Assembly: GCA_017610305.1 (NCBI GenBank)
Contig: JAFCCJ010000004.1
Location: 1-39,785, forward strand
Source of the DNA: Candidatus Iainarchaeum sp.
GTDB lineage: Archaea; Iainarchaeota; Iainarchaeia; Iainarchaeales; JAFCCJ01
Direction: 5' to 3'
Length of the DNA: 39,785 bases
Shown: positions 20,805-32,839 of the stretch, one piece after another
Layout of the letters: each line of letters begins with the position of its first letter
How positions within the stretch are numbered: position 1 is the first letter of the stretch
The notes under the pieces: model-generated
Databases searched by the model: none
What the model was told of the DNA's origin: nothing
The model's input: only the letters and a program-made list of their open reading frames with translations
Translations under genes and position numbers: made by a program

Positions 20805-21254
20805 TTATTCTGTAGGAACCTGCGGGCCCTGTGTTAGGGGTTCAATATCCAATGCATAAAGGAAATCCCATGCATCAGTATCCTCTGCCAAAAAATCCAG
20901 AATTTCTTTAGGGGTTGTGCTAATCAACATCTCTTCCCCATCATCAAAATCACATTGTATGGATAAGGTTTCAATATTCCGGTAAATTTCAGGAACTGCC
21001 GAGGCTTTATTTAGTGAGGTTCCAAAAACATATGCCCAAGTCCCATAAACTTCCTTTTCGGATGCTGAAACAGGCTGTGAATAGGTCACCCTGATTTCAT
21101 CTTCCGTAACCTCAACCAAGGTTACATCAATGCCTTCACTGTTAAGTTGTTCACTGATTGATTCCGCAATGTCAAAATAAGGGTCGTTATCATCAGGGCA
21201 GCCTGAAAGCAGGAGCAGTAAAAGAACAAAGCAAAACAATATCTTGAATTTCAT
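20805..21254 (-). CDS. Small lipoprotein of unknown function
   Basis: The 149 residues start with a lipoprotein signal (MKFKILFCFVLLLLLLSGC, Cys19 lipidated). The mature part is acidic, with two alpha-beta units (DVTLVEVTEDEIRVTYSQ and EIYRNIETLSIQCDFDDGE) reminiscent of small secreted ferredoxin-like domains. Its ATG overlaps the stop codon of the upstream cysteine-rich protein gene by four bases (ATGA type), so the two are translationally coupled and may act together on the cell surface. I do not recognise the family. Confidence 0.7.
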   Translation of the reverse strand: MKFKILFCFVLLLLLLSGCPDDNDPYFDIAESISEQLNSEGIDVTLVEVTEDEIRVTYSQPVSASEKEVYGTWAYVFGTSLNKASAVPEIYRNIETLSIQCDFDDGEEMLISTTPKEILDFLAEDTDAWDFLYALDIEPLTQGPQVPTE

Positions 21255-22846
21255 TCCACATCACCAAACCCTTTTATGTATTCAGTATCCGGCGCGCTTG
21301 TTGCCCATAGCAAGCCAGGCTCACCATAATAAACCCCGCCTTCCCTAATCACCTGATCTGCAAATGCTTCAAATCCCTCATCTGCTGAGTGACATGTATG
21401 GTTGTAATAAATATCAAGCGCGATACTGACCTCGGAGTTTGCCTTTAATCTTGCATCCTTTTCGCTCATCCCTTGCCGCATATACCATGCCTTTCTTGCT
21501 CTTGCAAGATGGATAGCAACATCATCAGCTCCCTGGTCCTCAATTGAAGGTTCACTTGCATGCGAGAAATAGGAAACAGCCCCCACATCAGGGTCTGTTA
21601 TTGCCGAAAAAATTGCATCAGACCTTGTTTCATCTGGCTCATCAAGCTTATAGCCCTGATCAAGCATAGTTACCTCATAACCAAGGGCTTTGTAAAATGC
21701 AACAGAATAATGCACTTTCTTAAGAATCCAAATCCTTTCCCTGCCACTTGTAATTGTCCCATTTATCAAAACATATGCCTTCTTGCCCTGCCCAATGTCG
21801 CTGGTAAATTCGTCAACATCAAGTCCAAGCCAGAATTTAATCTTTGCCTTGGTTTTTTCATCAATTTCCGGAATATTAGGATTTTCAGGATGCATTTCAT
21901 CCCCAAACCTATCTTGTAATTCCTCCAAATCCGGAATTCGTATATCTGCCTCCATACACACTCCGTCAAAGCAAACCTTGCCTTCACCGCAACCAGAATC
22001 AACAACGCATTCGCCAGTTATTTCAGGAAGGCAGAGCCCCTCTAAACATGTTTCCCCTTCATCACAGTCAGAATCATTAACACAATCGGTTGCAACTTCA
22101 CAATAGCCCTTAACACATTGAAAGCCACTGCTGCACGCATCATCCATTTTGCACTCCGGGCCCCAACACCAACCAAAGTAACAACTCTCTCCTGCTGAAC
22201 AACTGCCATCTTCTGAACAATCGGTCCCTGTCTTGTAACACGCATCCTCAAAGCATTCAAATCCTTCCCTGCACATTGTGTGCGGACAGCCCTGCAATCG
22301 GCTGCACATGCCATATTTACATTCATAATGCGCAGGGCATTGGCTGTTTCCCTCACAAATAATTTCTATCGGTTGGCAGTATCCTTTAATACAATCAAAT
22401 GTATGAACCTCATACATAGCCTTCCTCTTGCAGTGGGCAGATTCATCACAAATCCAAAGGTTCATCTTACATTTCCCAGATTGAAGACTTTGATCCCAAA
22501 CACACCTTTCTGTACTTGGACAGTCCCCAAGATCCCTACATTCCTTATTTGATGGATTGCAATTAAGGCTATCTGCACAGTCTGGGTCATCACAATCATT
22601 CAACCCATCACTGTCCTCATCAACACTGCTGTGGCACATTTCATAATAATGCACTCCTACTACGCACAAAGTTTTTCCCAAGCAGTAAGTTTTTTCCTCT
22701 GACCAGTCAAAGGAAATTCCCGGTCTCGGTTCTTGGGCGTCAAGCCTGCAATCAACCTGCTTGGAACAATCGGAAGCAGATGCCGATGCAGAAATAAATA
22801 TCAGAAAAAGAAGGGAAATAATTATCGCTGTTAATTTCCTATTCAT
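21251..22846 (-). CDS. Secreted cysteine-rich protein with a caspase-like C-terminal domain
   Basis: The 531-residue product starts with a Sec signal ending ISASASAS (about residue 24). Residues 25-300 are cysteine-rich. There is one calcium-loop-like stretch (DEDSDGLNDCDDPDC) and then repeats of the form 'C...SDC..GE.C..G.C', as in Dickkopf/EGF-like extracellular modules. The C-terminal 200 residues follow the caspase-hemoglobinase (clan CD) pattern: a strand KKAYVLINGTI, a helix and YKALGYEVTMLDQ, a strand ending in His (AVSYFSHASEP, His429) and a second strand ending in Cys (IYYNHTCHSADEGF, Cys485). The His-Cys pair suggests a cysteine protease; a non-protease relative is possible. It is coupled to the lipoprotein gene. 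Confidence 0.65.
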   Translation of the reverse strand: MNRKLTAIIISLLFLIFISASASASDCSKQVDCRLDAQEPRPGISFDWSEEKTYCLGKTLCVVGVHYYEMCHSSVDEDSDGLNDCDDPDCADSLNCNPSNKECRDLGDCPSTERCVWDQSLQSGKCKMNLWICDESAHCKRKAMYEVHTFDCIKGYCQPIEIICEGNSQCPAHYECKYGMCSRLQGCPHTMCREGFECFEDACYKTGTDCSEDGSCSAGESCYFGWCWGPECKMDDACSSGFQCVKGYCEVATDCVNDSDCDEGETCLEGLCLPEITGECVVDSGCGEGKVCFDGVCMEADIRIPDLEELQDRFGDEMHPENPNIPEIDEKTKAKIKFWLGLDVDEFTSDIGQGKKAYVLINGTITSGRERIWILKKVHYSVAFYKALGYEVTMLDQGYKLDEPDETRSDAIFSAITDPDVGAVSYFSHASEPSIEDQGADDVAIHLARARKAWYMRQGMSEKDARLKANSEVSIALDIYYNHTCHSADEGFEAFADQVIREGGVYYGEPGLLWATSAPDTEYIKGFGDVE

Positions 22847-22967
22847 GAGTTTTTATAAGTGCAAAGAGCTATTTAATTCTTGCTGAATTGAAATTTTGAT
22901 TAATTTATGCGATTAATTAGCAATCGACACAATCAAAAAAATTAGCAAATTAGGCAGTATATAAACA

Positions 22968-22976
22968 TTTATAAAT
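22968..22976 (+). promoter_or_regulatory. Probable TATA box of the leu-ilv operon leader
   Basis: The 316-base stretch 22847-23162 before leuA has no long gene. It holds this TTTATAAAT box (predicted transcription near 22998), a TATATATAT run at 22990-22998 that could be an alternative box, the leader ORF, a hairpin and a second TATA-like sequence at 23131. Two copies of GATTAATT at 22898 and 22911 lie upstream and could be regulator sites, but are weak. Confidence 0.45.
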
Positions 22977-23008
22977 GATTTAAGCTACTATATATATTGT
23001 TGATTCAG

Positions 23009-23077
23009 ATGAGTAAGGATAATTTTTTGAATAAATTGCTTGTTTTGCTAGTCCTTGGTCTGATTTTGGTACTGTAA
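23009..23077 (+). CDS. Leucine-rich leader peptide of the leu-ilv operon (candidate attenuator ORF)
   Basis: A 22-codon ORF starts with ATG at 23009 and ends with TAA at 23075. After MSKDNFL the sequence is NKLLVLLVLGLILVL: nine Leu, three Val and one Ile among 22 codons. It ends 85 bases before leuA, the first gene of a nine-gene leucine/isoleucine/valine operon. A hairpin begins at the base after the stop codon. It resembles bacterial leuL/ilvL leaders in composition and place. It has no Shine-Dalgarno, which fits a short-leader transcript from the TTTATAAAT box. The alternatives are a small hydrophobic membrane peptide or a chance ORF; the match to the operon product favours a leader. Confidence 0.6.
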   Translation: MSKDNFLNKLLVLLVLGLILVL

Positions 23078-23115
23078 AGTGCCCTCTGAATCACAAACGA
23101 ATTTTAGAGGGCGTT
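23078..23115 (+). promoter_or_regulatory. Inverted repeat (RNA hairpin) after the leucine leader ORF
   Basis: GCCCTCT (23081-23087) pairs perfectly with AGAGGGC (23106-23112). Three more inner pairs (GAA with TTT, one G-U) and three outer pairs (two G-U) extend the stem to about 13 pairs around a 12-base loop. It starts directly after the stop codon of the leucine-rich ORF, so a ribosome terminating there would cover its 5' arm. A-rich rather than T-rich sequence follows, so it is not a bacterial-style intrinsic terminator. It could also be a DNA operator. Confidence 0.55.
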
Positions 23116-23130
23116 AAAAAAAGAAGAGAT

Positions 23131-23139
23131 ATCTATATA
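23131..23139 (+). promoter_or_regulatory. Possible proximal TATA box of leuA
   Basis: TCTATATAG is centred about 28 bases before the ATG at 23163, the leaderless spacing. If used, it would give a leuA transcript lacking the leader ORF and hairpin. A GAGGT Shine-Dalgarno seven bases before the same ATG argues that leuA can also be translated from a longer mRNA. Confidence 0.35.
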
Positions 23140-23162
23140 GTGGAAGAAAAGAGGTTTTGAGG

Positions 23163-24716
23163 ATGAAGAAGGAAAAAATAGTGATTTTTGACACAACCCT
23201 CCGTGATGGGGAACAGAGTCCTGGTGCAACGCTAAACCATCAGGAGAAGATGATAATTGCCAACCAGCTGGCAAAGCTGGGGGTTGATGTAATTGAGGCA
23301 GGGTTTCCTGTTGCTTCGCCGGGGGATTTTAAGGCGATTAAGGAAATAGGTGAAACTATTAAGGGTCCGAGAGTTGCGGCACTGGCAAGGTGTTTGGAGA
23401 AGGATATTGATTCCGCAGCTGCAGCGCTGAAGAACGCGAAAAACCCAAGAATGCATGTTTTCCTCGCAACTTCCCCAATCCATATGAAGTACAAGCTCAA
23501 AAAGAGCCCAAAAGAGATAATTGCCCTCGGCGTGCAGGGAGTGAAAATGGCAAAGGATAATTTTGATGATATTGAGTTCTCCCCTGAAGATGCCTCGCGC
23601 ACAAAGCCAAAATTCCTTTTTGAGATTCTGGAAAAGGTAATTGATGCAGGCGCAACAACTGTGAACATTCCTGACACTGTGGGATATGCACAGCCATATG
23701 AATTTGCAATGCTTATAAAATCCATAAAGGAGAATGTACCAAACATCGATGATGCAACAATTAGTGTCCATTGCCACAATGATTTGGGGCTTGCGGTTGC
23801 AAATTCCCTGGAGGCAGTAAGGAATGGGGCAAGGCAGGTTGAGTGCACCATCAATGGAATAGGTGAAAGGGCAGGCAATGCCTCTTTGGAGGAAATTGTG
23901 ATGAGCCTTAAAACCAGGAAAGACCATTTTGGTTTTTCGACAGGGATAAAAACAAGGGAAATTTATAACGCCAGCAAAATGGTTTCCGATTTCACAGGTT
24001 TAATAGTTCAGCCAAATAAAGCAGTTGTTGGGAGGAATGCCTTTGCACATGAGGCAGGAATACACCAGCATGGCATGCTGAGCAGCAGGGAGTGCTATGA
24101 GATAATGGACCCAAAAATGATAGGCCTTAAGACTGAATTAGTTATAGGAAAGCATTCCGGGAAGCACGCCGTAAAAAAAGTGCTTAACAACCTGGGTTAC
24201 AGGCTCACAAAAGAACAGCTGAAGCAGATTTCAGCAAAGATAAAATCGCTTGCAGACAAGCAGAAGCATGTTATGAGGGAGGACATAATTGCAATAGCAA
24301 ATGATGTCACCCAGCAGCTTTCCAAAGAGGAAAGGATTATTGAACTGGATGAGATTGTGGTGATGACCGGAAACAGGATAATGCCAACCGCAACAGTCAG
24401 CCTGATAGTTGACGGCAAGATGGTCGGGGGTTTAGGAAAGGGTGTGGGGCCTGTTGATGCTGTGAGCAGGGCAATTTTCTCAGTAGTTGGCAGCGGGGTC
24501 TCCTTAAAAGAATATAATCTCAAGGCAATAACTGGCGGGACTGATGCATTGGCTGAAGTGGCAATAAAGGTGGAGGACAAGAAGAAGAACACATATTCGG
24601 CAGGAGCCATAAACGAAGACGTTATAATGGCTTCTGCAAAGGCATTAATAAAAGGTGCAAACAAGGTTTTGAACTTTGAAAGAAGCAAAAAAAAGAAAAG
24701 GGGCAAAGGAAAATGA
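23163..24716 (+). CDS. leuA: 2-isopropylmalate synthase
   Basis: LeuA condenses acetyl-CoA with 2-ketoisovalerate, the first committed step to leucine. From the ATG at 23163 (a TTG at 23157 is an alternative) it has 517 residues. The TIM-barrel catalytic part opens FDTTLRDGEQSPGATL (metal and substrate residues Arg14, Asp15) and contains VNIPDTVGYAQP, the metal-binding VHCHNDLGLAVANSLEAV and INGIGERAGNASLEE. FAHEAGIHQHGML and GKHSGKHAV follow. The C-terminal 130 residues are the LeuA regulatory domain that binds leucine in feedback inhibition. The catalytic part could also fit citramalate synthase, but full length and operon context favour LeuA. It overlaps ilvB by four bases. Confidence 0.93.
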   Translation: MKKEKIVIFDTTLRDGEQSPGATLNHQEKMIIANQLAKLGVDVIEAGFPVASPGDFKAIKEIGETIKGPRVAALARCLEKDIDSAAAALKNAKNPRMHVFLATSPIHMKYKLKKSPKEIIALGVQGVKMAKDNFDDIEFSPEDASRTKPKFLFEILEKVIDAGATTVNIPDTVGYAQPYEFAMLIKSIKENVPNIDDATISVHCHNDLGLAVANSLEAVRNGARQVECTINGIGERAGNASLEEIVMSLKTRKDHFGFSTGIKTREIYNASKMVSDFTGLIVQPNKAVVGRNAFAHEAGIHQHGMLSSRECYEIMDPKMIGLKTELVIGKHSGKHAVKKVLNNLGYRLTKEQLKQISAKIKSLADKQKHVMREDIIAIANDVTQQLSKEERIIELDEIVVMTGNRIMPTATVSLIVDGKMVGGLGKGVGPVDAVSRAIFSVVGSGVSLKEYNLKAITGGTDALAEVAIKVEDKKKNTYSAGAINEDVIMASAKALIKGANKVLNFERSKKKKRGKGK

Positions 24717-26407
24717 ATGGTGCTGAAGCAATAGTCAAAACCCTAATTGGCGAAAAGACAAAGCATGTTTTTGGCTTTCCCGGCGGGTCTGTAATCCCAC
24801 TTTATGACGAATTCCTGAATTACACCAAAGAGATTAAACATGTTCTTGTCAGGCATGAGCAGGGAGCCGCACATGCTGCTGAAGGCTATGCAAGAGCTTC
24901 AGGAAAGGCGGGGGTTTGCATTGCAACATCAGGGCCAGGGGCGACAAATTTAGTTACGGGAATAATGGATGCTTATATGGATTCTGTCCCCATAATCGCC
25001 TTTGCCGGGCAGGTTCCCACAACCCTAATTGGGAATGATGCATTTCAGGAATCAGACATGATGGGAATAACCGCACCCATTACAAAGCACAATTTTCAGA
25101 TAAGGGACAGCAATCAGATAGAGGCGACCATAAAGAAGGCATTTACCATCGCCATGAATGGGCGGCCAGGCCCTGTCTTCATAGACCTTCCCAAAGATGC
25201 GCAAACCAATAAGGTGACAAAAAAAGTCAATCATGTGATGATTCGCGGATTTAAGCCTAACTTAAAAGGCCATCCAAAGCAGATAAAGGCCGCGGCAGAA
25301 ATGATATTGAAGGCAGAAAGACCGGTTATCCTTGCGGGAGGTGGAATATTGCATTCCTCGGCTTACAATGAATTGCTGTCTTTGGCTGAGAAGTTTGGGA
25401 TTCCTGTGACAACAACCTTTATGGGCAAAAGCGTATTCCCTGAAAGCCATCCCCTTTCATTGGGTGTTTTGGGTATGCACGGGAGAAAGGTCGCAAACTA
25501 TGCAATTGTAAATGCAGATGTGCTAATAGCAGTTGGGTGCAGGTTCTCGGACAGGATAACAGGAAACCTGGACACATTTTTGCAGGATTCAAAAGTGATT
25601 CACATCGACATTGATTCAGCGGAAATAGGGAAGAATGTTGCTGTTGATTTGCCGATTCAGGGAGATGCCAAGCTTGTGCTCGGGGATTTGCTTAAGATGA
25701 TGAAAAAGAAGGCACTAAAAAGCAAGGAATGGAACAATAAAATCAAAAATCTTATCAGGGAATGCCAGTGCGACCAGGATATTGATGACAATCCCCCTGA
25801 CCCGAGAAGGGTTTTGTTTGAATTGCAAAAACTTATTTCAGATAAGGATATAGTCACAACCGGGGTTGGGCAGCAGCAGATGTTTGCCTCACATTTCTTA
25901 AAAAGGGAAAAACCAAGGACCTTTATCTCAAGCGGGGGCGCGGGCACTATGGGCTTTGGGCTTCCTGCGGCAATGGGCGCAAAAACGGCAAAGCCCGATG
26001 TAAATGTTATTGATTTTGATGGTGACGGGAGTTTTGCAATGACCCAGCAGGAACTGGCAACCTGCAAAGAAGAGGGGATAAATGTTAAGGCAGTTATAAT
26101 GAACAACGCTTATCTTGGAATGGTGAGGCAATGGCTGGAACTTTTCTACGATAAAAGATATTCTCAGGTCTACCTAAATAGGAACCCTGACTTTGAGAAA
26201 ATTGCGCAGGCACACAGCTTAAATGGCCATACCGTAACAAGGTCAAGCCAGATTTATCCCGCATTAAAAGAGGCGTTTAAGGAAGACGAAGCTTCGGTCA
26301 TAGATATTCAGGTAGCTGAGGAATCAAACATCCTCCCGATGTTTGCCGCGGGAAAAAATGTGGATGATATGTTTGGATGGTGTATCCCAAAGAAATATTT
26401 CAGGTGA
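24713..26407 (+). CDS. ilvB: Acetolactate synthase, large (catalytic) subunit
   Basis: This ThDP enzyme joins two pyruvates to acetolactate, or pyruvate with 2-ketobutyrate. The 564-residue protein has the usual three domains. The Pyr domain has HVFGFPGGSVIPLYDEF and the catalytic glutamate in RHEQGAAHAAEGYARASG; the central FAD domain follows with GGGILHSSAYNELL; the PP domain has the ThDP-Mg motif FDGDGSFAMTQQELATC ending VIMNNAYLGMVRQW. TSGPGATNLVTGI and DSVPIIAFAGQVP also match. The regulatory small subunit gene follows after 4 bases. Its ATG overlaps the leuA stop codon, showing translational coupling. Confidence 0.97.
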   Translation: MNGAEAIVKTLIGEKTKHVFGFPGGSVIPLYDEFLNYTKEIKHVLVRHEQGAAHAAEGYARASGKAGVCIATSGPGATNLVTGIMDAYMDSVPIIAFAGQVPTTLIGNDAFQESDMMGITAPITKHNFQIRDSNQIEATIKKAFTIAMNGRPGPVFIDLPKDAQTNKVTKKVNHVMIRGFKPNLKGHPKQIKAAAEMILKAERPVILAGGGILHSSAYNELLSLAEKFGIPVTTTFMGKSVFPESHPLSLGVLGMHGRKVANYAIVNADVLIAVGCRFSDRITGNLDTFLQDSKVIHIDIDSAEIGKNVAVDLPIQGDAKLVLGDLLKMMKKKALKSKEWNNKIKNLIRECQCDQDIDDNPPDPRRVLFELQKLISDKDIVTTGVGQQQMFASHFLKREKPRTFISSGGAGTMGFGLPAAMGAKTAKPDVNVIDFDGDGSFAMTQQELATCKEEGINVKAVIMNNAYLGMVRQWLELFYDKRYSQVYLNRNPDFEKIAQAHSLNGHTVTRSSQIYPALKEAFKEDEASVIDIQVAEESNILPMFAAGKNVDDMFGWCIPKKYFR

Positions 26408-26411
26408 TTAA

Positions 26412-26930
26412 ATGATAGAGGGACGAAAAAAGATAACGAAAAAGCGCAGGCATATAGTCGGTTTGCTTGTGGAGGACCAGCCAGGGGTAATGGCAAAAGT
26501 TTCAGGCCTGTTTGCAAGAAGGGGCTTTAACATAGACACTTTAGTTGTTGGGAAAGCCACCCAGAAAGGGGTATCCCATATTGTTGTTAGCTTAATAGCT
26601 GATGACAAAACAGTGGAGCAATTGGAAAAGCAGGTGAGCAAGCTTGTGGATGTGTTTAAGGTTATTGATTTAAATGAAAAACATTCGGTTGTCAGGGAGC
26701 ATTGCCTGCTTAAGGTGAGTTCAACAGCAAAAACCAGAAAGGATTTGGTAAATATTGCAAAGCTGCACCATGCAGAGGTACTGAACATGAATTCCGATTC
26801 CATAATTATTGAAATTTTAGGTGACCCTGAGAAGATAAACAACTTCCTAAAACTTGCGCAAAAGTATGGCATAAAAGAGGTAAGCAGGACAGGGATTAAC
26901 GCAATGCAGTGGGGAAATAATAAAAAATAA
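26412..26930 (+). CDS. ilvN: Acetolactate synthase, small (regulatory) subunit
   Basis: The small subunit stimulates IlvB and carries the valine feedback site. The 172-residue protein has an N-terminal ACT domain (HIVGLLVEDQPGVMAKVSGL followed by FARRGFNIDTLVVG) and the IlvH-type C-terminal domain (LLKVSSTAKTRKDLVNIAK, IIEILGDPEKINNFLKL, GIKEVSRTGINAM). It is slightly extended at the N-terminus by a basic stretch (IEGRKKITKKRR). GGTGAT lies three bases before the ATG. A T-rich gap of 32 bases separates it from ilvC and could allow partial termination. Confidence 0.95.
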   Translation: MIEGRKKITKKRRHIVGLLVEDQPGVMAKVSGLFARRGFNIDTLVVGKATQKGVSHIVVSLIADDKTVEQLEKQVSKLVDVFKVIDLNEKHSVVREHCLLKVSSTAKTRKDLVNIAKLHHAEVLNMNSDSIIIEILGDPEKINNFLKLAQKYGIKEVSRTGINAMQWGNNKK

Positions 26931-26962
26931 TTTTTATTCAATTTATTTTTGGAGGGATTTGA

Positions 26963-27946
26963 ATGGAACTGTATTATGACAAAGATGTTGATGAAAAGGT
27001 TTTGGAAGGAAAAACGATTGCAATAATCGGCTATGGTTCCCAAGGGAAGAACCAGGGTCTTTGCATGAGGGATTCCGGGCTTAATGTGGTTTATGGTTTG
27101 AGAGAGGGTGGAAAGAGCTGGGAGGCCGCAAAAAAAGACGGCTTTGAGGTTTTGCCAATTGCAGAAGCCACAAAAAAGGCAGATGTTATTCACATACTCA
27201 TACCTGATGAGATTCAGGGGGATGTTTACAAGGAGCATATTGGCCCGAATTTAAGTGAGGGGAAGGTGCTAAGCTGCAGCCATGGCTTTAATATTGCATT
27301 TAAACGAATAGTCCCGCCTGAAAATGTTGATGTTATAATGGTCGCGCCAAAATCCCCTGGAAGCGAGGAAAGGAAGCGCTATCTTGAGGGCTTCGGGGTT
27401 CCTGGGCTTGTTGCGGTTTCGCAGGACGCAAGCGGGAACGCAAAGAACATTGCACTTGCAATGGCAAAGGGCGTTGGCTTAACAAGAGCTGGGGTTTTGG
27501 AATGCACTTTTGGGCAGGAAGCATATGAAGACCTCTTTGGCGAACAGGCAGTTCTTTGTGGAGGAGTTGTTGAATTGATGAAGGCCGGGTTTGAAACCTT
27601 GGTGAATAAGGGCTATCCGCCCGAACTCGCATACTTTGAATGTTTGCACGAAATGAAACTGATAATTGATTTGGTCTATGAGAAAGGAATTGAGGGCATG
27701 TATAATGAGGTCAGCAATACCGCCGAATATGGTGGAAGAATGATTGGCCCGAAAATAATTACTGATTCCACAAGAAAGGTTATGGCTGAGACTTTGGAAA
27801 AGGTTGAGAATGGCGAATTTGCTAGGGAATGGATTCAGGAATACAAAGGCGGCATGAAAAACTTCAACAAGATGAAGGAAGAACAGGCAAAGCACCCCAT
27901 TGAGATTACTGGCGAGAAAATTCGTTCACTGTTCAAGAAGAAATAA
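26963..27946 (+). CDS. ilvC: Ketol-acid reductoisomerase
   Basis: IlvC isomerises and reduces acetolactate to dihydroxyisovalerate with NAD(P)H and Mg2+. The 327-residue length is that of short class I enzymes. The Rossmann motif is IIGYGSQGKNQG and the cofactor-selecting loop is GLREGGKSWEAA. SCSHGFNI, VIMVAPKSPGS and DLFGEQAVLCGG (a metal-binding Asp/Glu segment) are conserved. The first metal helix reads FGQEAYEDLFGEQ rather than the common EETETDLFGEQ, so an outer residue differs while the ligand Asp and Glu remain. GGAGGG lies six bases upstream of the ATG. Confidence 0.96.
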   Translation: MELYYDKDVDEKVLEGKTIAIIGYGSQGKNQGLCMRDSGLNVVYGLREGGKSWEAAKKDGFEVLPIAEATKKADVIHILIPDEIQGDVYKEHIGPNLSEGKVLSCSHGFNIAFKRIVPPENVDVIMVAPKSPGSEERKRYLEGFGVPGLVAVSQDASGNAKNIALAMAKGVGLTRAGVLECTFGQEAYEDLFGEQAVLCGGVVELMKAGFETLVNKGYPPELAYFECLHEMKLIIDLVYEKGIEGMYNEVSNTAEYGGRMIGPKIITDSTRKVMAETLEKVENGEFAREWIQEYKGGMKNFNKMKEEQAKHPIEITGEKIRSLFKKK

Positions 27947-27965
27947 TCTTTTTTGAGGCAATTTT

Positions 27966-29588
27966 ATGGAAATAGCCAAAATAAAGGACCTTCCCGCAGC
28001 TCGGGGCCTGCTTGCAGCCGACGGCATAAAAAGCAAGGACCTAATGAAGCCGTTTATTGCTGTTGTTAACAGCTTTAATGAGATTACTCCGGGGCATATC
28101 CACCTTAACCGCTTGGGAAAGAAGGTTAAGGAAGGGATAAAAGCCGCAGGGGGAATTCCATTGGAGTTCCACACTATTGCGATTTGCGATGGCATAGCAA
28201 TGGGTCATGAAGGGATGAAATATTCTTTGCCCAGCAGGGAAACTATTGCAGATAGCATAGAGGAAATGATTGCAGGTCATGGTGTTTTCGCAGGGGCTGT
28301 GTTTATTGCAGGGTGCGACAAAAATCTCCCCGGGCATTTGAAGGCAGCCGCAAGGCTGAATATACCAAGCATTTTTGTAACCTCCGGACCAATGATGCCT
28401 GGCAAGGTTAATGGGAAGGATGCGGATGTTAAAAACTGCTTTGAGGCACTTGCACAGCTTGAAAGGGGAAAAATAACAAGAGAAGAGTATGAGAACATTA
28501 CGGATAATTCCTGTCCAGGTGCGGGGAGTTGCGCTGGGTTGTTTACTGCAAATTCAATGGCGGCAGTCACTGAGGCATTGGGATTAAGCCTTCCATATTG
28601 CGCAACAACCCATGCGATCGATAAAAAGAAGGATGAAATCGCATTTGAATCAGGGGAGAAGATAATGGAATTGGTGGAAAAAGGAGTCAGGGCAAGGGAT
28701 ATAATGACAGAAAAGGCATTTGAAAATGCATTGCGTTTGGATATGGCAATAGGTGCATCAACAAACACAATATTGCACGTGCCTGATGTTGCAAAAGAGG
28801 CAGGATTTGAATTTGACCTGAAAAGAATTAATGAAATAAGTGAAACCACGCCAAATTTGGTTAAACTTTCCCCAAATTCAGATTATCATTTAATTGATTT
28901 TCACAAGGCGGGGGGAGTTCCTGCGGTTTTGAATGAGCTGAATAAGAAGAAACTTCTACATAATGAGAATACGGTGGAGGGAAAACTATTTGATAGATTA
29001 AATGACGCCTCAATAAAGGATGAGAAAGTGATAAGGCCGATTGATAATCCTTATTCAGAAGATGGCGGGATTGCCATACTTTATGGAAACCTTGCTGAAG
29101 AGGGGTCTGTGGTGAAAGAAAGCGGAATTTCCATCGAATTTCCAAAAGTGTTTGAGGGAAATGCATTGGTATTTGATTCTGAGGATGAAATCAATGAATA
29201 CATTGAGAAACAAGAGCCCCCAAAAGGCACTGTGATAGTGATAAGATATGAGGGAAAGATAGGTGGGCCTGGAATGAGGGAAATGCTTTACCCCACAGCT
29301 TCAGTTTCAGGATTGGGGCTGGATTTGGATGTTGCATTGATTACTGACGGAAGATTTTCAGGGGCAACGCATGGCGCCTGCATAGGGCATGTTGAACCAG
29401 AGGCTGCGCGCAGAGGGACAATTGCGGTTGTGAAAAACGGGGATAAGATTAAGATAGATTTTGAGAAGAAGAGAATTGATTTATTGGTTGATGATAAGGA
29501 AATCGCTGCGCGGAAAAAGAATCTAAAAATAAAATTGAAGGAACCGCATGGAAAGGTTTTGGAAAATTACCGGAAGAGGTTTTTGTGA
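27966..29588 (+). CDS. ilvD: Dihydroxy-acid dehydratase
   Basis: IlvD dehydrates dihydroxy acids to 2-ketoisovalerate and 2-keto-3-methylvalerate using an iron-sulphur cluster. The 540-residue protein has IAVVNSFNEITPGHIHLNRL, the block CDGIAMGHEGMKYSLPSRE, the cluster cysteine in IAGCDKNLPGHL and NSCPGAGSCAGLFTANSM with further cysteines. The C-terminal GKIGGPGMREMLYPTA and DGRFSGATHGACIGHVEPEA are conserved. The cysteine pattern is that of the E. coli type; the cluster type cannot be settled from sequence alone. Its product feeds both LeuA and PanB. It touches the following small ORF in a TGATG arrangement. Confidence 0.96.
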   Translation: MEIAKIKDLPAARGLLAADGIKSKDLMKPFIAVVNSFNEITPGHIHLNRLGKKVKEGIKAAGGIPLEFHTIAICDGIAMGHEGMKYSLPSRETIADSIEEMIAGHGVFAGAVFIAGCDKNLPGHLKAAARLNIPSIFVTSGPMMPGKVNGKDADVKNCFEALAQLERGKITREEYENITDNSCPGAGSCAGLFTANSMAAVTEALGLSLPYCATTHAIDKKKDEIAFESGEKIMELVEKGVRARDIMTEKAFENALRLDMAIGASTNTILHVPDVAKEAGFEFDLKRINEISETTPNLVKLSPNSDYHLIDFHKAGGVPAVLNELNKKKLLHNENTVEGKLFDRLNDASIKDEKVIRPIDNPYSEDGGIAILYGNLAEEGSVVKESGISIEFPKVFEGNALVFDSEDEINEYIEKQEPPKGTVIVIRYEGKIGGPGMREMLYPTASVSGLGLDLDVALITDGRFSGATHGACIGHVEPEAARRGTIAVVKNGDKIKIDFEKKRIDLLVDDKEIAARKKNLKIKLKEPHGKVLENYRKRFL

Positions 29589-29824
29589 TGGCTGCTAAAA
29601 AGAGTACTAAAAGGAGGACGACTCCAAATTTCATTGTTAGAACTCCCAGTACTGGCAAGTCAGTTCTTGAATCAGTCGGCCTTACAAAATTGCAAGTAAA
29701 TGAGCTTAGGGCAATTGCAAAAAAACATAAAGTTGACTTAAACGAGATTCCCGCAAGTGTTTTTTTAAAAGGACATAATAGAATTGCTTTAGAAATTCGA
29801 AATAGATCAAAAACAAAACAATAA
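29588..29824 (+). CDS. Small basic protein inserted in the leu-ilv operon, function unknown
   Basis: The ATG at 29588 overlaps the ilvD stop codon by one base (TGATG); a GTG at 29585 is less likely. The product has 78 residues: a basic N-terminus (AAKKSTKRRTTPNF) and a helical part LESVGLTKLQVNELRAIAKK that looks like a SAP-type or helix-extended-loop DNA/RNA-binding unit, then KVDLNEIPASVFLKGHNRIAL. The 'L.......L..IAKKHKV.L' pattern is similar to Rho-N/SAP motifs, but this is weak. It sits inside the operon between ilvD and leuC, so it is cotranscribed with the pathway; a regulatory role is only a guess. Confidence 0.6.
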   Translation: MAAKKSTKRRTTPNFIVRTPSTGKSVLESVGLTKLQVNELRAIAKKHKVDLNEIPASVFLKGHNRIALEIRNRSKTKQ

Positions 29825-29837
29825 TGAGGTAATTATA

Positions 29838-31100
29838 ATGCCACAAACAATAACTGAAAAAATAATCGCAAAGCATTGCGGAAAGGAGGAGGTTTCACCA
29901 GGGGAATTGGTTAACATCGATTTGGATGTTATTCTTGCACATGAAGTAACCACGCCCCCGGCAATTTCTGCTCTTGAGAGAAATGGCATTGACCAAGTGT
30001 TTGATCCCGATAAAATAGTGGTTACCCCCGACCATTTTGTCCCGAATAAGGATGAAAAAACAGCGGAGCTGGCAAAAAGGCTTAGGGATTGGGTAAAGAA
30101 GCACAAAATAAAGAATTATTATGAAATTGGCAGGCACGGGATTTGCCATACAATACTCATTGAGAATGGCCATGTCCTCCCGGGAATGACTGTGGTTGCC
30201 GGAGATAGCCATACATGTACTCACGGGGTTGTGGGGGCATTTGGGATGGGCATAGGCTCAACAGAATTGGCGGCGGCCATCGCTACAGGAAAAAGCTGGT
30301 TTATAGTTCCTGAAACTATTAAGGTGGAGATTAATGGCGAATTGGGCAAGGGAGTTTACAGTAAGGACGTAATGCTGCAGATTCTTTCCAAATTGGGTGT
30401 TGATGGAGCGACTGACAAGGTGATAGAATATGTTGGCTCAACAATTGACGCAATGGAAGTTGAGGATAGGGTTGTTCTTACAAATATGGCGGTTGAGGCA
30501 GGTGCCACTTTAGGGATAATAAATCCTGACAAGAAGACAATTAAATATGTGGAACAAAGAAGCAATAAAAAATATGATTTAGTGAAGTCTGATGCCGATG
30601 CTAAATTTTCTTCCCATAAAAAATTTGACGTTTCTTCACTTGAGCCAATGGTTGCCGTTCCTTCACTCCCCTCAAATGGAAAAACTGTTTCCAAAGTTAA
30701 GGATGTGAAAGTGGACCAGGCTGTTGTGGGGAGCTGCACAAATGGGAGAATTGGCGATTTGAGGGAAGCGGCAGCAGTGTTAAAGGGCAATGAAGTGCAT
30801 AAGGATGTTAGAATGATAGTTATTCCCGCCACCACAAAAATATACAAGCAGGCATTGAGAGAAGGGTTACTGGAACAGTTTATTGATGCAAACGCAACTG
30901 TCTCAACCCCGACCTGCGGGCCTTGTTTAGGGGGCCATATGGGAGTTCTTGCAGAAGGAGAAAGGTGCATTGCCTCCACAAACAGGAATTTTGTCGGGAG
31001 AATGGGCCATCCAAAGAGCGAGGTATATTTGGCATCGCCTGCAACTGTTGCGGCATCTGCAATAGATGGAAAGGTTGCTGACCCGAGGAAATATTTATAG
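29838..31100 (+). CDS. leuC: 3-isopropylmalate dehydratase, large subunit
   Basis: LeuC with LeuD isomerises 2- to 3-isopropylmalate. The 420-residue protein is of the archaeal/short aconitase-like type. It carries VVAGDSHTCTHGVVGAFGMG, the cluster cysteines in VVGSCTNGRIGDLR and TPTCGPCLGGHMGVLAEGE, and ASTNRNFVGRMGHP near the end, all needed for the [4Fe-4S] site. The related homoaconitase (HacA) cannot be excluded from sequence alone, but neighbours leuA, leuD and leuB fix leucine synthesis as its role here. GAGGTAA lies before the ATG. Confidence 0.95.
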   Translation: MPQTITEKIIAKHCGKEEVSPGELVNIDLDVILAHEVTTPPAISALERNGIDQVFDPDKIVVTPDHFVPNKDEKTAELAKRLRDWVKKHKIKNYYEIGRHGICHTILIENGHVLPGMTVVAGDSHTCTHGVVGAFGMGIGSTELAAAIATGKSWFIVPETIKVEINGELGKGVYSKDVMLQILSKLGVDGATDKVIEYVGSTIDAMEVEDRVVLTNMAVEAGATLGIINPDKKTIKYVEQRSNKKYDLVKSDADAKFSSHKKFDVSSLEPMVAVPSLPSNGKTVSKVKDVKVDQAVVGSCTNGRIGDLREAAAVLKGNEVHKDVRMIVIPATTKIYKQALREGLLEQFIDANATVSTPTCGPCLGGHMGVLAEGERCIASTNRNFVGRMGHPKSEVYLASPATVAASAIDGKVADPRKYL

Positions 31101-31108
31101 GTGAGATG

Positions 31109-31600
31109 ATGAAAGGACGGGCGATTGTTTACAAAAAGAATGATATTGATACAGACCTGATAATTCCCGCAAAGTACCTGAATACAGATGACCCTAAAGA
31201 ACTTGCAGAGCATGCAATGGAATTTTTGGATGTAGAATTCCCAAAAAAGGTAAAGGAAGGGGATATTTTAGTTGCAGGAAGGAATTTCGGATGCGGGAGT
31301 AGTAGAGAGCATGCAATATGGTGCCTAACCGGAAATGGGGTACAGGCAGTAATCGCGGAAAGTTTTGCAAGGATTTTTTTCCGTAATGGCATAAATTATG
31401 GTTTGCTTCCAGTTGTATTGGAGGGGGCGACCAAAAAGATTTCAGATGGTGATGAACTGGAGATTGATGTGAAGAAGGGAACTGTGAAAAATATTACTAG
31501 TGGCAAGGAATTTGAAATCAAGCCATATCCTGAATTTGCGATGAAAATAATTAATGCTGGCGGGCTTATGAATTATGTGAAGAAGGAGATGAATAAATGA
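31109..31600 (+). CDS. leuD: 3-isopropylmalate dehydratase, small subunit
   Basis: This is the swivel-domain subunit that completes the active site of LeuC. The family signature is present: [35 protein letters not shown] and [20 protein letters not shown]. The length of about 163 residues is normal. Two ATG codons (31106 and 31109) overlap the spacing window; GGTGAG three bases before 31109 matches the spacing at scpB and ilvN, so 31109 is chosen. The stop codon overlaps the leuB start (ATGA). Confidence 0.95.
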
Positions 31601-32658
31601 GTAAAAAGATTGCAGTTTTAGCTGGAGACGGAATAGGTCCTGAGGTAATTGCCGAAACCCTTAAGGTTTTGCATGCGGTTGAAGAAAAGTTTGGCGCAAA
31701 ATTTGAATTTAATGAGGCATTGATAGGCGGTGCCGCAATAGATGAAAAAGGAAAGGCCCTTCCTGATGAAACTCTGGAATTGTGCAAAAACTGCGATGCA
31801 ATTCTTTTGGGCGCAGTTGGCGGGGACAAGTGGGATAAACTTCCGCCTGAAGAGAGGCCTGAAAGGGCTGCACTCCTTCCATTGCGGAAAGAATTTGATT
31901 TATTTGCAAACTTAAGGCCGGTGAAAGTATTTCCTGCTCTGGCAAATGCATCCACACTGAAAGCTGAAATAATTGAGGGCGGATTTGACATAATGATAGT
32001 GCGGGAATTAACCGGGGGAATTTATTTCGGGAAGAAGGGAAAAGGAAATGACTGGGCAAGTGATGAGCTCAAATATTCAGTCCCTGAAATCGAAAGGGTT
32101 GCAAAAGTAGCTTTTGAGATTGCAATGAAGCGCGGAAAGAAAGTTTGTTCTGTTGACAAGGCAAATGTCCTTTCTTCAATGGTTTTGTGGAGGGAGACCG
32201 TTGAAAAACTGGCGAAAGAGTTTCCTGAGATTGAACTTTCGCATATGTATGTTGATAATGCGGCAATGCAGTTGGTGAGAAACCCAAAGCAGTTTGATGT
32301 TATTGTAACTGGGAATATGTTTGGAGATATTTTAAGCGATGAGGCATCTATGATAAGCGGAAGCATAGGAATGCTTGCATCAGCATCCCTGCGGGAGGAC
32401 TCTTTCGGTTTATATGAACCAATCCACGGCTCAGCTCCTGATATTGCAGGCCAGAATAAGGCAAACCCAATGGCGACCATTTTAAGCGCCGCAATGATGC
32501 TTCGCCATTCTTTTGGAATGGAAAAAGAGGCAAAAGCGGTGGAAACTGCAGTAAATGCAGTTCTTGAAGAGGGGTTTCGCACAGGGGACATAATGCAGAA
32601 AAACTGCAAACAACTGGGAACCAAGGAAATTGGGGATGAAATTGCCAAAAGAGTGTAA
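31597..32658 (+). CDS. leuB: 3-isopropylmalate dehydrogenase
   Basis: LeuB oxidises and decarboxylates 3-isopropylmalate with NAD+. The 353-residue protein opens [20 protein letters not shown] and has [13 protein letters not shown], the substrate-arginine segment [41 protein letters not shown] and the cofactor loop [18 protein letters not shown], whose Asp/Ile region fits NAD+ preference. Isocitrate dehydrogenase is excluded by the LRPVK and GGIYFG motifs. It is the last gene of the operon; the promoter of the aromatic leader begins 27 bases after its stop codon. Confidence 0.96.
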
Positions 32659-32716: not shown

Positions 32717-32809
32717 ATGACATACATCAGCCTGCATAATAGGCCGTCGCTTGTGGTGATGTTAGTGGATGCTCTTTCTTCTATCCCATATTTTTTCTTT
32801 TATTGGTAA
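32717..32809 (+). CDS. Aromatic-rich leader peptide of the aromatic operon (candidate attenuator ORF)
   Basis: A 30-codon ORF from ATG 32717 to TAA 32807 ends SSIPYFFFYW: six consecutive aromatic codons (Tyr, Phe, Phe, Phe, Tyr, Trp) directly before the stop. The genes behind it make the aromatic precursor DAHP and phenylalanine. The start falls where a leaderless transcript from the TATA box at 32685 should begin, which is the arrangement of many genes in this window. A hairpin follows three bases after the stop codon. The resemblance is to bacterial pheL/trpL leaders. The control codons also form a T-rich tract (TATTTTTTCTTTTATTGG), itself a possible archaeal termination signal. Translation is inferred, not shown. 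Confidence 0.72.
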   Translation: MTYISLHNRPSLVVMLVDALSSIPYFFFYW

Positions 32810-32812
32810 TTT

Positions 32813-32839
32813 AGGCAGTACCATTTATGGCGACTGTCT
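32813..32839 (+). promoter_or_regulatory. Inverted repeat (RNA hairpin) after the aromatic leader ORF
   Basis: AGGCAGT (32813-32819) pairs with ACTGTCT (32833-32839) with one G-U pair, and inside it CCAT (32821-32824) pairs with ATGG (32827-32830) around a two-base loop. The stem begins three bases after the leader stop codon, so a terminating ribosome would cover the 5' arm. CTCAAAAAAG follows rather than a T-tract. Confidence 0.5.

Follow-up and report, generated by a model that had tools for sequence, protein, structure and literature searches.

A leucine-rich leader ORF as a probable ribosome-mediated attenuator of the leu-ilv operon in an archaeon

A short, leucine-rich open reading frame (ORF) in front of the leu-ilv operon of an archaeon is probably a ribosome-mediated attenuator, which would sense charged tRNA-Leu, perhaps also tRNA-Val, and control the operon. 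Attenuation through a leader peptide is classical in bacteria, and no report of it for amino-acid operons of archaea was found in open-access full texts (subscription journals were outside the scope). Comparison of sequences supports the ORF itself, its amino-acid specificity, a hairpin following its stop codon (P1) and, in leucine leaders only, a hairpin with the stop codon in its loop (P0). Expression, ribosome-profiling and 3'-end data are not available.

The leucine leader and its operon

The analysed DNA (hereafter the window, 39,785 nucleotides) is one contig from a Diapherotrites genome of 1.24 Mb; all features given below lie on the plus strand unless stated otherwise. The earlier note on this DNA was silent about the host, which is found to be an archaeon, and about a 3:4 terminator hairpin, which is absent. 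The promoter is of TATA type, and FttA is present: the cut-off of the FttA/aCPSF1 model (TIGR03675) is exceeded here and in 20 of 21 relatives.

The leader ORF (23009-23077) encodes the peptide MSKDNFLNKLLVLLVLGLILVL, whose leucine run reaches the stop codon. According to the earlier note, 9 of its 22 codons are leucine and 13 are for branched-chain residues, an inverted repeat begins at the base after the stop codon, and a nine-gene operon for leucine, isoleucine and valine follows. Translation confirms the composition, the repeat is formed by 23078-23090 with 23103-23115, and the operon (23163-32658) indeed comprises nine genes in the order leuA, ilvB, ilv small subunit, ilvC, ilvD, a small ORF, leuC, leuD and leuB. 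The first gene, leuA (2-isopropylmalate synthase, 23163-24716; TIGR00973, 683.9 bits, cutoff 598.7), belongs to the bacterial equivalog and its ribosome-binding region, read from sequence, contains AGAGG and GAGG (23150-23162). The ninth member, the small ORF that separates ilvD from leuC (approximately 29588-29825, some 78 codons), has no function assigned. Divergently from the operon, the minus strand encodes a 531-amino-acid protein (21251-22846) with weak matches to DUF7107 and acidic double-disulfide repeats. A second isopropylmalate/citramalate-synthase-like gene, about 31-33% identical, is present in many of these genomes (G000 and relatives, L019-L028).

Among the 315 ATG ORFs of 15-45 amino acids in the window, the leader ranks first by far both for leucine (8 of the last 13 residues) and for leucine, isoleucine and valine together (12 of the last 13). 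A composition-blind scan was also applied, requiring an ATG ORF of 14-45 codons outside large frames, a TATA-like box upstream and a hairpin of -8 kcal/mol or lower right after the stop codon. From the window it returned exactly two ORFs, the leucine leader and an aromatic leader starting at 32717. The same scan of 0.72 Mb of fetched loci, picked around leuA, DAHP synthase, hisG and trpE, gave 29 hits, 19 of them leucine or aromatic leaders by our count.

The earlier note had proposed to look for the ORF in relatives, and there it is conserved. Of the 75 genomes of the order, 19 possess the present type of leuA; the rest of the phylum yielded no further one. All 19 carry a leucine-run ORF ahead of the operon (for example MKTAGSFGTKSTNYLLSLLVLLLVLLLG, MFSGNTSNLTVLVLLVLVLLA and MTKEEKEEFIYINKTPKTIYDRLKELLLLLAL, each followed by the stop codon), 18 of them clearly. 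In G006 it precedes the first operon gene rather than leuA, and in the atypical case, G002, no ATG was found and the frame continues through the 5' arm of its own hairpin. A leucine-run ORF is further present in six genomes of Nanohalarchaeota (G087, G088, G090, G102, G103 and G118; that of G088 is visible only in part, at a contig end), with tails such as NLVLLLL, NLFVLLLL, MLFLLL and SASALLL directly before the stop codon.

A putative archaeal promoter of the leader transcript is located at 22958-22976, with TATATAAA at 22958-22965 and TTTATAAAT at 22968-22976. Because a TATA-like box precedes the leader ATG by 22-52 nt in 31 of 36 leaders, a transcription start upstream of the leader appears to be a conserved arrangement, although transcript data are lacking. 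The boxes form, by eye, two groups. Those near -27 to -32 imply an almost leaderless leader ORF, and those near -40 to -50 are accompanied by Shine-Dalgarno-like GTGAT or GGTGA ahead of the ATG. In the window itself, we infer a weak Shine-Dalgarno-like TTGATT (23000-23005), with AGTGAT and GGTGAA as counterparts in relatives. Transcription starting only at a proximal TATA box (23131-23139), which the earlier note had named as refuting, is not what the upstream boxes suggest; no box at a conserved place matching the proximal one was seen among the leaders. The stretch covering it, AGATATCTATATAG (23127-23140), is a member of a AGAAGTCnTTAG-like linear motif, present at +48 to +54 after the stop codon in ten leucine leaders (those of the window, L003, L006, L009, L037-L040 and L042, and L008 as a loose match). 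No role is assigned to it; in three f16 genomes its pairing with the P1 loop is possible.

Amino-acid specificity and RNA structure

A leader of the same kind, MTYISLHNRPSLVVMLVDALSSIPYFFFYW (32717-32809, ending in SSIPYFFFYW before the stop codon), lies 9.7 kb downstream of the leucine leader and precedes genes for transaldolase, chorismate mutase-prephenate dehydratase, transketolase and DAHP synthase. It ranks first for aromatic residues among the same 315 ORFs (6 of the last 6). Altogether, 12 aromatic operons possess a leader ending in Phe, Tyr or Trp, 11 of them in relatives (for example YFAYWYFYFFE, FYFYFWFFK and GFYYFW as final residues). The idea of the earlier note that one control logic is used twice, each time with the matching amino acid, therefore holds.

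The two kinds of tails show almost no crossover. The last ten residues of the leucine leaders contain 115 leucines, 29 valines and 1 phenylalanine out of 180 (64% Leu), and those of the aromatic leaders 82 phenylalanines, tyrosines and tryptophans and 1 leucine out of 120 (68% F/Y/W). All six leucine codons are used in the leucine leaders. Since the type of residue switches with the pathway and all six codons are employed, the leader peptide is thus selected for the tRNA needed and not for its chemistry. A bias for rare codons was rejected, as the leucine codons of the leaders resemble those of the operon. We hold amino-acid-specific control by the leader for very likely; sensing is strongly supported and stalling of the ribosome is inferred. 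No credible histidine or tryptophan leader was found upstream of hisG or trpE in the fetched stretches, other amino-acid operons having been only sampled; two tryptophan-rich hits border an apparent tRNA gene and are not credible leaders.

The inverted repeat after the leucine leader forms the hairpin P1 (23078-23115) with the core GCCCTCT/AGAGGGC. Its predicted energy is -16 kcal/mol (z = -4.9), and none of 200 shuffled sequences was as stable. In almost every leader, 0-6 nt separate the stop codon from the start of P1. The corresponding hairpin of the aromatic leader of the window (32813-32839) pairs AGGCAGT (32813-32819) with ACTGTCT (32833-32839), with z = -2.7. The string TTAGGCAGTA is common to the 5' arm of this aromatic hairpin (32811-32820) and to the region upstream of the leu TATA box (22950-22959), probably by chance.

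Pairing was tested without alignment: each duplex energy within one leader was set against the energies obtained after exchanging segments among leaders. For P1 (segment +1 to +13 with +20/22 to +42 after the stop codon), matched segments surpass permuted ones with z = -7.4 in leucine leaders, -5.3 in aromatic leaders and -10.5 in all, for which no permutation did as well; with added leaders z reaches -11.1 and none of 10,000 permutations is as good. Since members of a family are related, one leader was also drawn per family, the families being few. P1 survives this check, with median z of -5.1 for leucine and -4.0 for aromatic leaders.

In the second hairpin, P0 (23068-23083), GGTACT (23068-23073) pairs with AGTGCC (23078-23083) and the stop codon lies in the loop; its counterpart in family f8 is GCTAGGA/TCCTAGC. 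When the last 24 nt of the ORF are tested with +1 to +13, P0 is supported in leucine leaders (z = -4.2; one leader per family, median -2.9, against -1.3 for a neighbouring control segment). As a class it is unsupported in aromatic leaders (z = -0.6, matched against permuted). P0 and P1 are mutually exclusive, because the segment after the stop codon is common to both. In leucine leaders they are the counterparts of the 1:2 and 2:3 regions in bacterial attenuators.

Two other pairings found no class-wide support. The start region of the leader (23001-23009, TGATTCAGA) can pair with the 5' arm of P1 (23085-23093, TCTGAATCA) over a perfect 9 nt in the window. This pairing is not class-wide (p = 0.20), being probably a chance match or private to the genome of the window. 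A class-wide pseudoknot between the P1 loop and a downstream segment is not above permutation (z = -0.9), in a test that is weak if both segments are conserved; single leaders, those of G067 and the aromatic one of G007, are able to form it. A search against Rfam gave nothing near the gathering score and no T-box match.

Proposed mechanism and competing explanations

In the mechanism we propose, ribosome stalling, the reasoning from the ribosome footprint, the assignment of P1 as the ON structure, output through U-tract or FttA, and derepression at starvation dependent on translation of the leader are all inferences. As the 5' leader is short or nearly absent, a ribosome would occupy the leader ORF right upon its transcription. 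Under shortage of Leu-tRNA, it would halt in the leucine run and cover the last codons (region 1), so that P0 is blocked. The stalled ribosome would leave region 2 behind the stop codon free; P1 (2:3) could then fold, hiding a U-tract in its loop, and transcription would carry on into leuA. When Leu-tRNA is plentiful, the ribosome would reach the stop codon and cover region 2, and P1 would not be formed in time. Ribosome-free RNA after the stop codon, without P1, would be open to archaeal termination through the U-tract and/or FttA. In the absence of translation, P0 would capture region 2 and the same OFF outcome would be expected. That P1 is the ON structure is a reasonable, if not secure, inference: the direction from structure to output rests on analogy with the bacterial 2:3 helix.

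Termination in archaea uses U-rich tracts and/or FttA and requires no hairpin (PMC8716108, PMC11616081). The candidate signal in the window is TTTT in the P1 loop (23102-23105), whose function is inferred. Runs of at least four U at +11 to +32, the zone of the P1 loop, were counted in 18 of 34 leaders, where 4.5 would be expected (7 at +39 to +60). In the window, the U-tract is no longer than four U in the leucine leader and is missing from the aromatic one. With no support for a terminator hairpin or for pairing to the ribosome-binding site of leuA, the OFF state would most likely be ordinary archaeal termination. Output through FttA or the U-tract nevertheless stays tentative, only about half of the leaders having such a run in the P1 loop. 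Beside the missing experimental data, the lack of support for P0 in aromatic leaders also speaks against our main reading. Somewhat short of an even chance, in our view, is the general form of this idea: in at least two DPANN groups, amino-acid operons would be under ribosome-mediated attenuation, in which a hairpin adjacent to the stop codon forms only upon stalling and shields a U-tract from FttA/U-tract termination, one module being fitted with leucine or aromatic codons.

The most serious rival, unlikely though it seems to us, is translational attenuation: the leader would control not transcription but the exposure of the leuA ribosome-binding site, through a base stem of leucine codons with the Shine-Dalgarno sequence or through pairing of the latter with region 2. 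Such a leucine-codon stem has been proposed for actinobacterial LEU elements (PMC1262725), and the window allows pairing of region 2 with AGAGG in the Shine-Dalgarno sequence of leuA (-9.8 kcal/mol) and of the leader codons with this sequence and the start (-10.3 kcal/mol). Matched duplexes of leader and ribosome-binding site are, however, no better than permuted ones, whether region 2 (p = 0.78), the ORF tail (p = 0.40) or region 3 (p = 0.36) is taken, and the distance from the stop codon to leuA varies between 77 and 166 nt in the 15 leaders measured. Both results are evidence against direct sequestration of the site. The leader of G011 (L029, approximately 1335-1470) leaves room for a translational output, to the detriment of our main reading: there, roughly one base lies between the end of P1 and the leuA Shine-Dalgarno sequence GGAGGTGA, and this compact leader may act on translation.

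An attenuator of the classical bacterial type, complete with 3:4 terminator hairpin and acquired alongside bacterial biosynthesis genes, would agree with the bacterial equivalog of leuA and with strong downstream helices of some leaders (for example those of G027, G067 and the aromatic one of G007). We regard it as improbable, because pairing of the P1 3' arm (region 3) with downstream sequence is not above permutation (z = 0.4-0.5), the leucine leader of the window has no fold once +1 to +12 is masked (z = +1.2) and no U-run after P1, and a terminator hairpin is dispensable for archaeal RNA polymerase (PMC8716108). Still less can be said for an untranslated structured RNA or a protein-binding site with an incidental ORF. 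P1 is the best-supported RNA element and the linear motif at +48 to +54 recurs in ten leaders, but the identity of the amino acid is kept across all six leucine codons and tracks the pathway. The main alternative of the earlier note, a functional hydrophobic membrane micropeptide, for which the strongly hydrophobic C-terminal half of the peptide might speak, is excluded in its generic form by pathway-matched tails (Leu/Val or Phe/Tyr/Trp) almost without crossover, and has the least to recommend it, given an N-terminal half that is not conserved and a stop codon locked to a covarying hairpin.

Comparison with known attenuation systems

If attenuation by a leader peptide is confirmed, archaea use the coupling of transcription and translation as a regulatory sensor, and archaea with small genomes gain control of biosynthesis without a regulatory protein. 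The leaders would also present a natural test case for competition between the ribosome and termination of FttA type; structural work on FttA poses ribosome-FttA competition as an open question (PMC11616081).

The archaeal leaders share with the bacterial trp, leu, his and phe attenuators a short ORF rich in codons for the end product directly ahead of the operon and, in leucine leaders, two helices around the stop codon (1:2 and 2:3) of which only one can form at a time. They differ in the archaeal host with its TATA-type promoter, in critical codons that reach the stop codon with the hairpin only 0-6 nt beyond, and in having no supported 3:4 terminator hairpin with U-run. The archaeal leader thus works like an attenuator, yet fails the classical definition at the terminator. 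T-box leaders likewise would sense tRNA charging; here, in contrast, a translated ORF is the sensor and no Rfam match exists.

The actinobacterial LEU element, located upstream of leuA, also combines an ORF with a run of leucine codons, conserved structure and no obvious terminator. For this element, a pseudoknot and a base stem between leucine codons and the leuA Shine-Dalgarno sequence were proposed (PMC1262725), both of which are unsupported as class features in the archaeal leaders (p = 0.40 for the stem), and the archaeal design also serves aromatic operons. Mycobacterial cys leaders have their run of regulatory codons near the stop codon as well and also lack a terminator hairpin, suggesting factor-dependent termination. 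Unlike the archaeal leaders with their conserved hairpin, they are bacterial, Rho was proposed as their factor and no conserved hairpins were reported (PMC1262725). With their other defining elements unsupported here, the actinobacterial LEU element and the mycobacterial cys leaders are the nearest parallels to the archaeal leaders.
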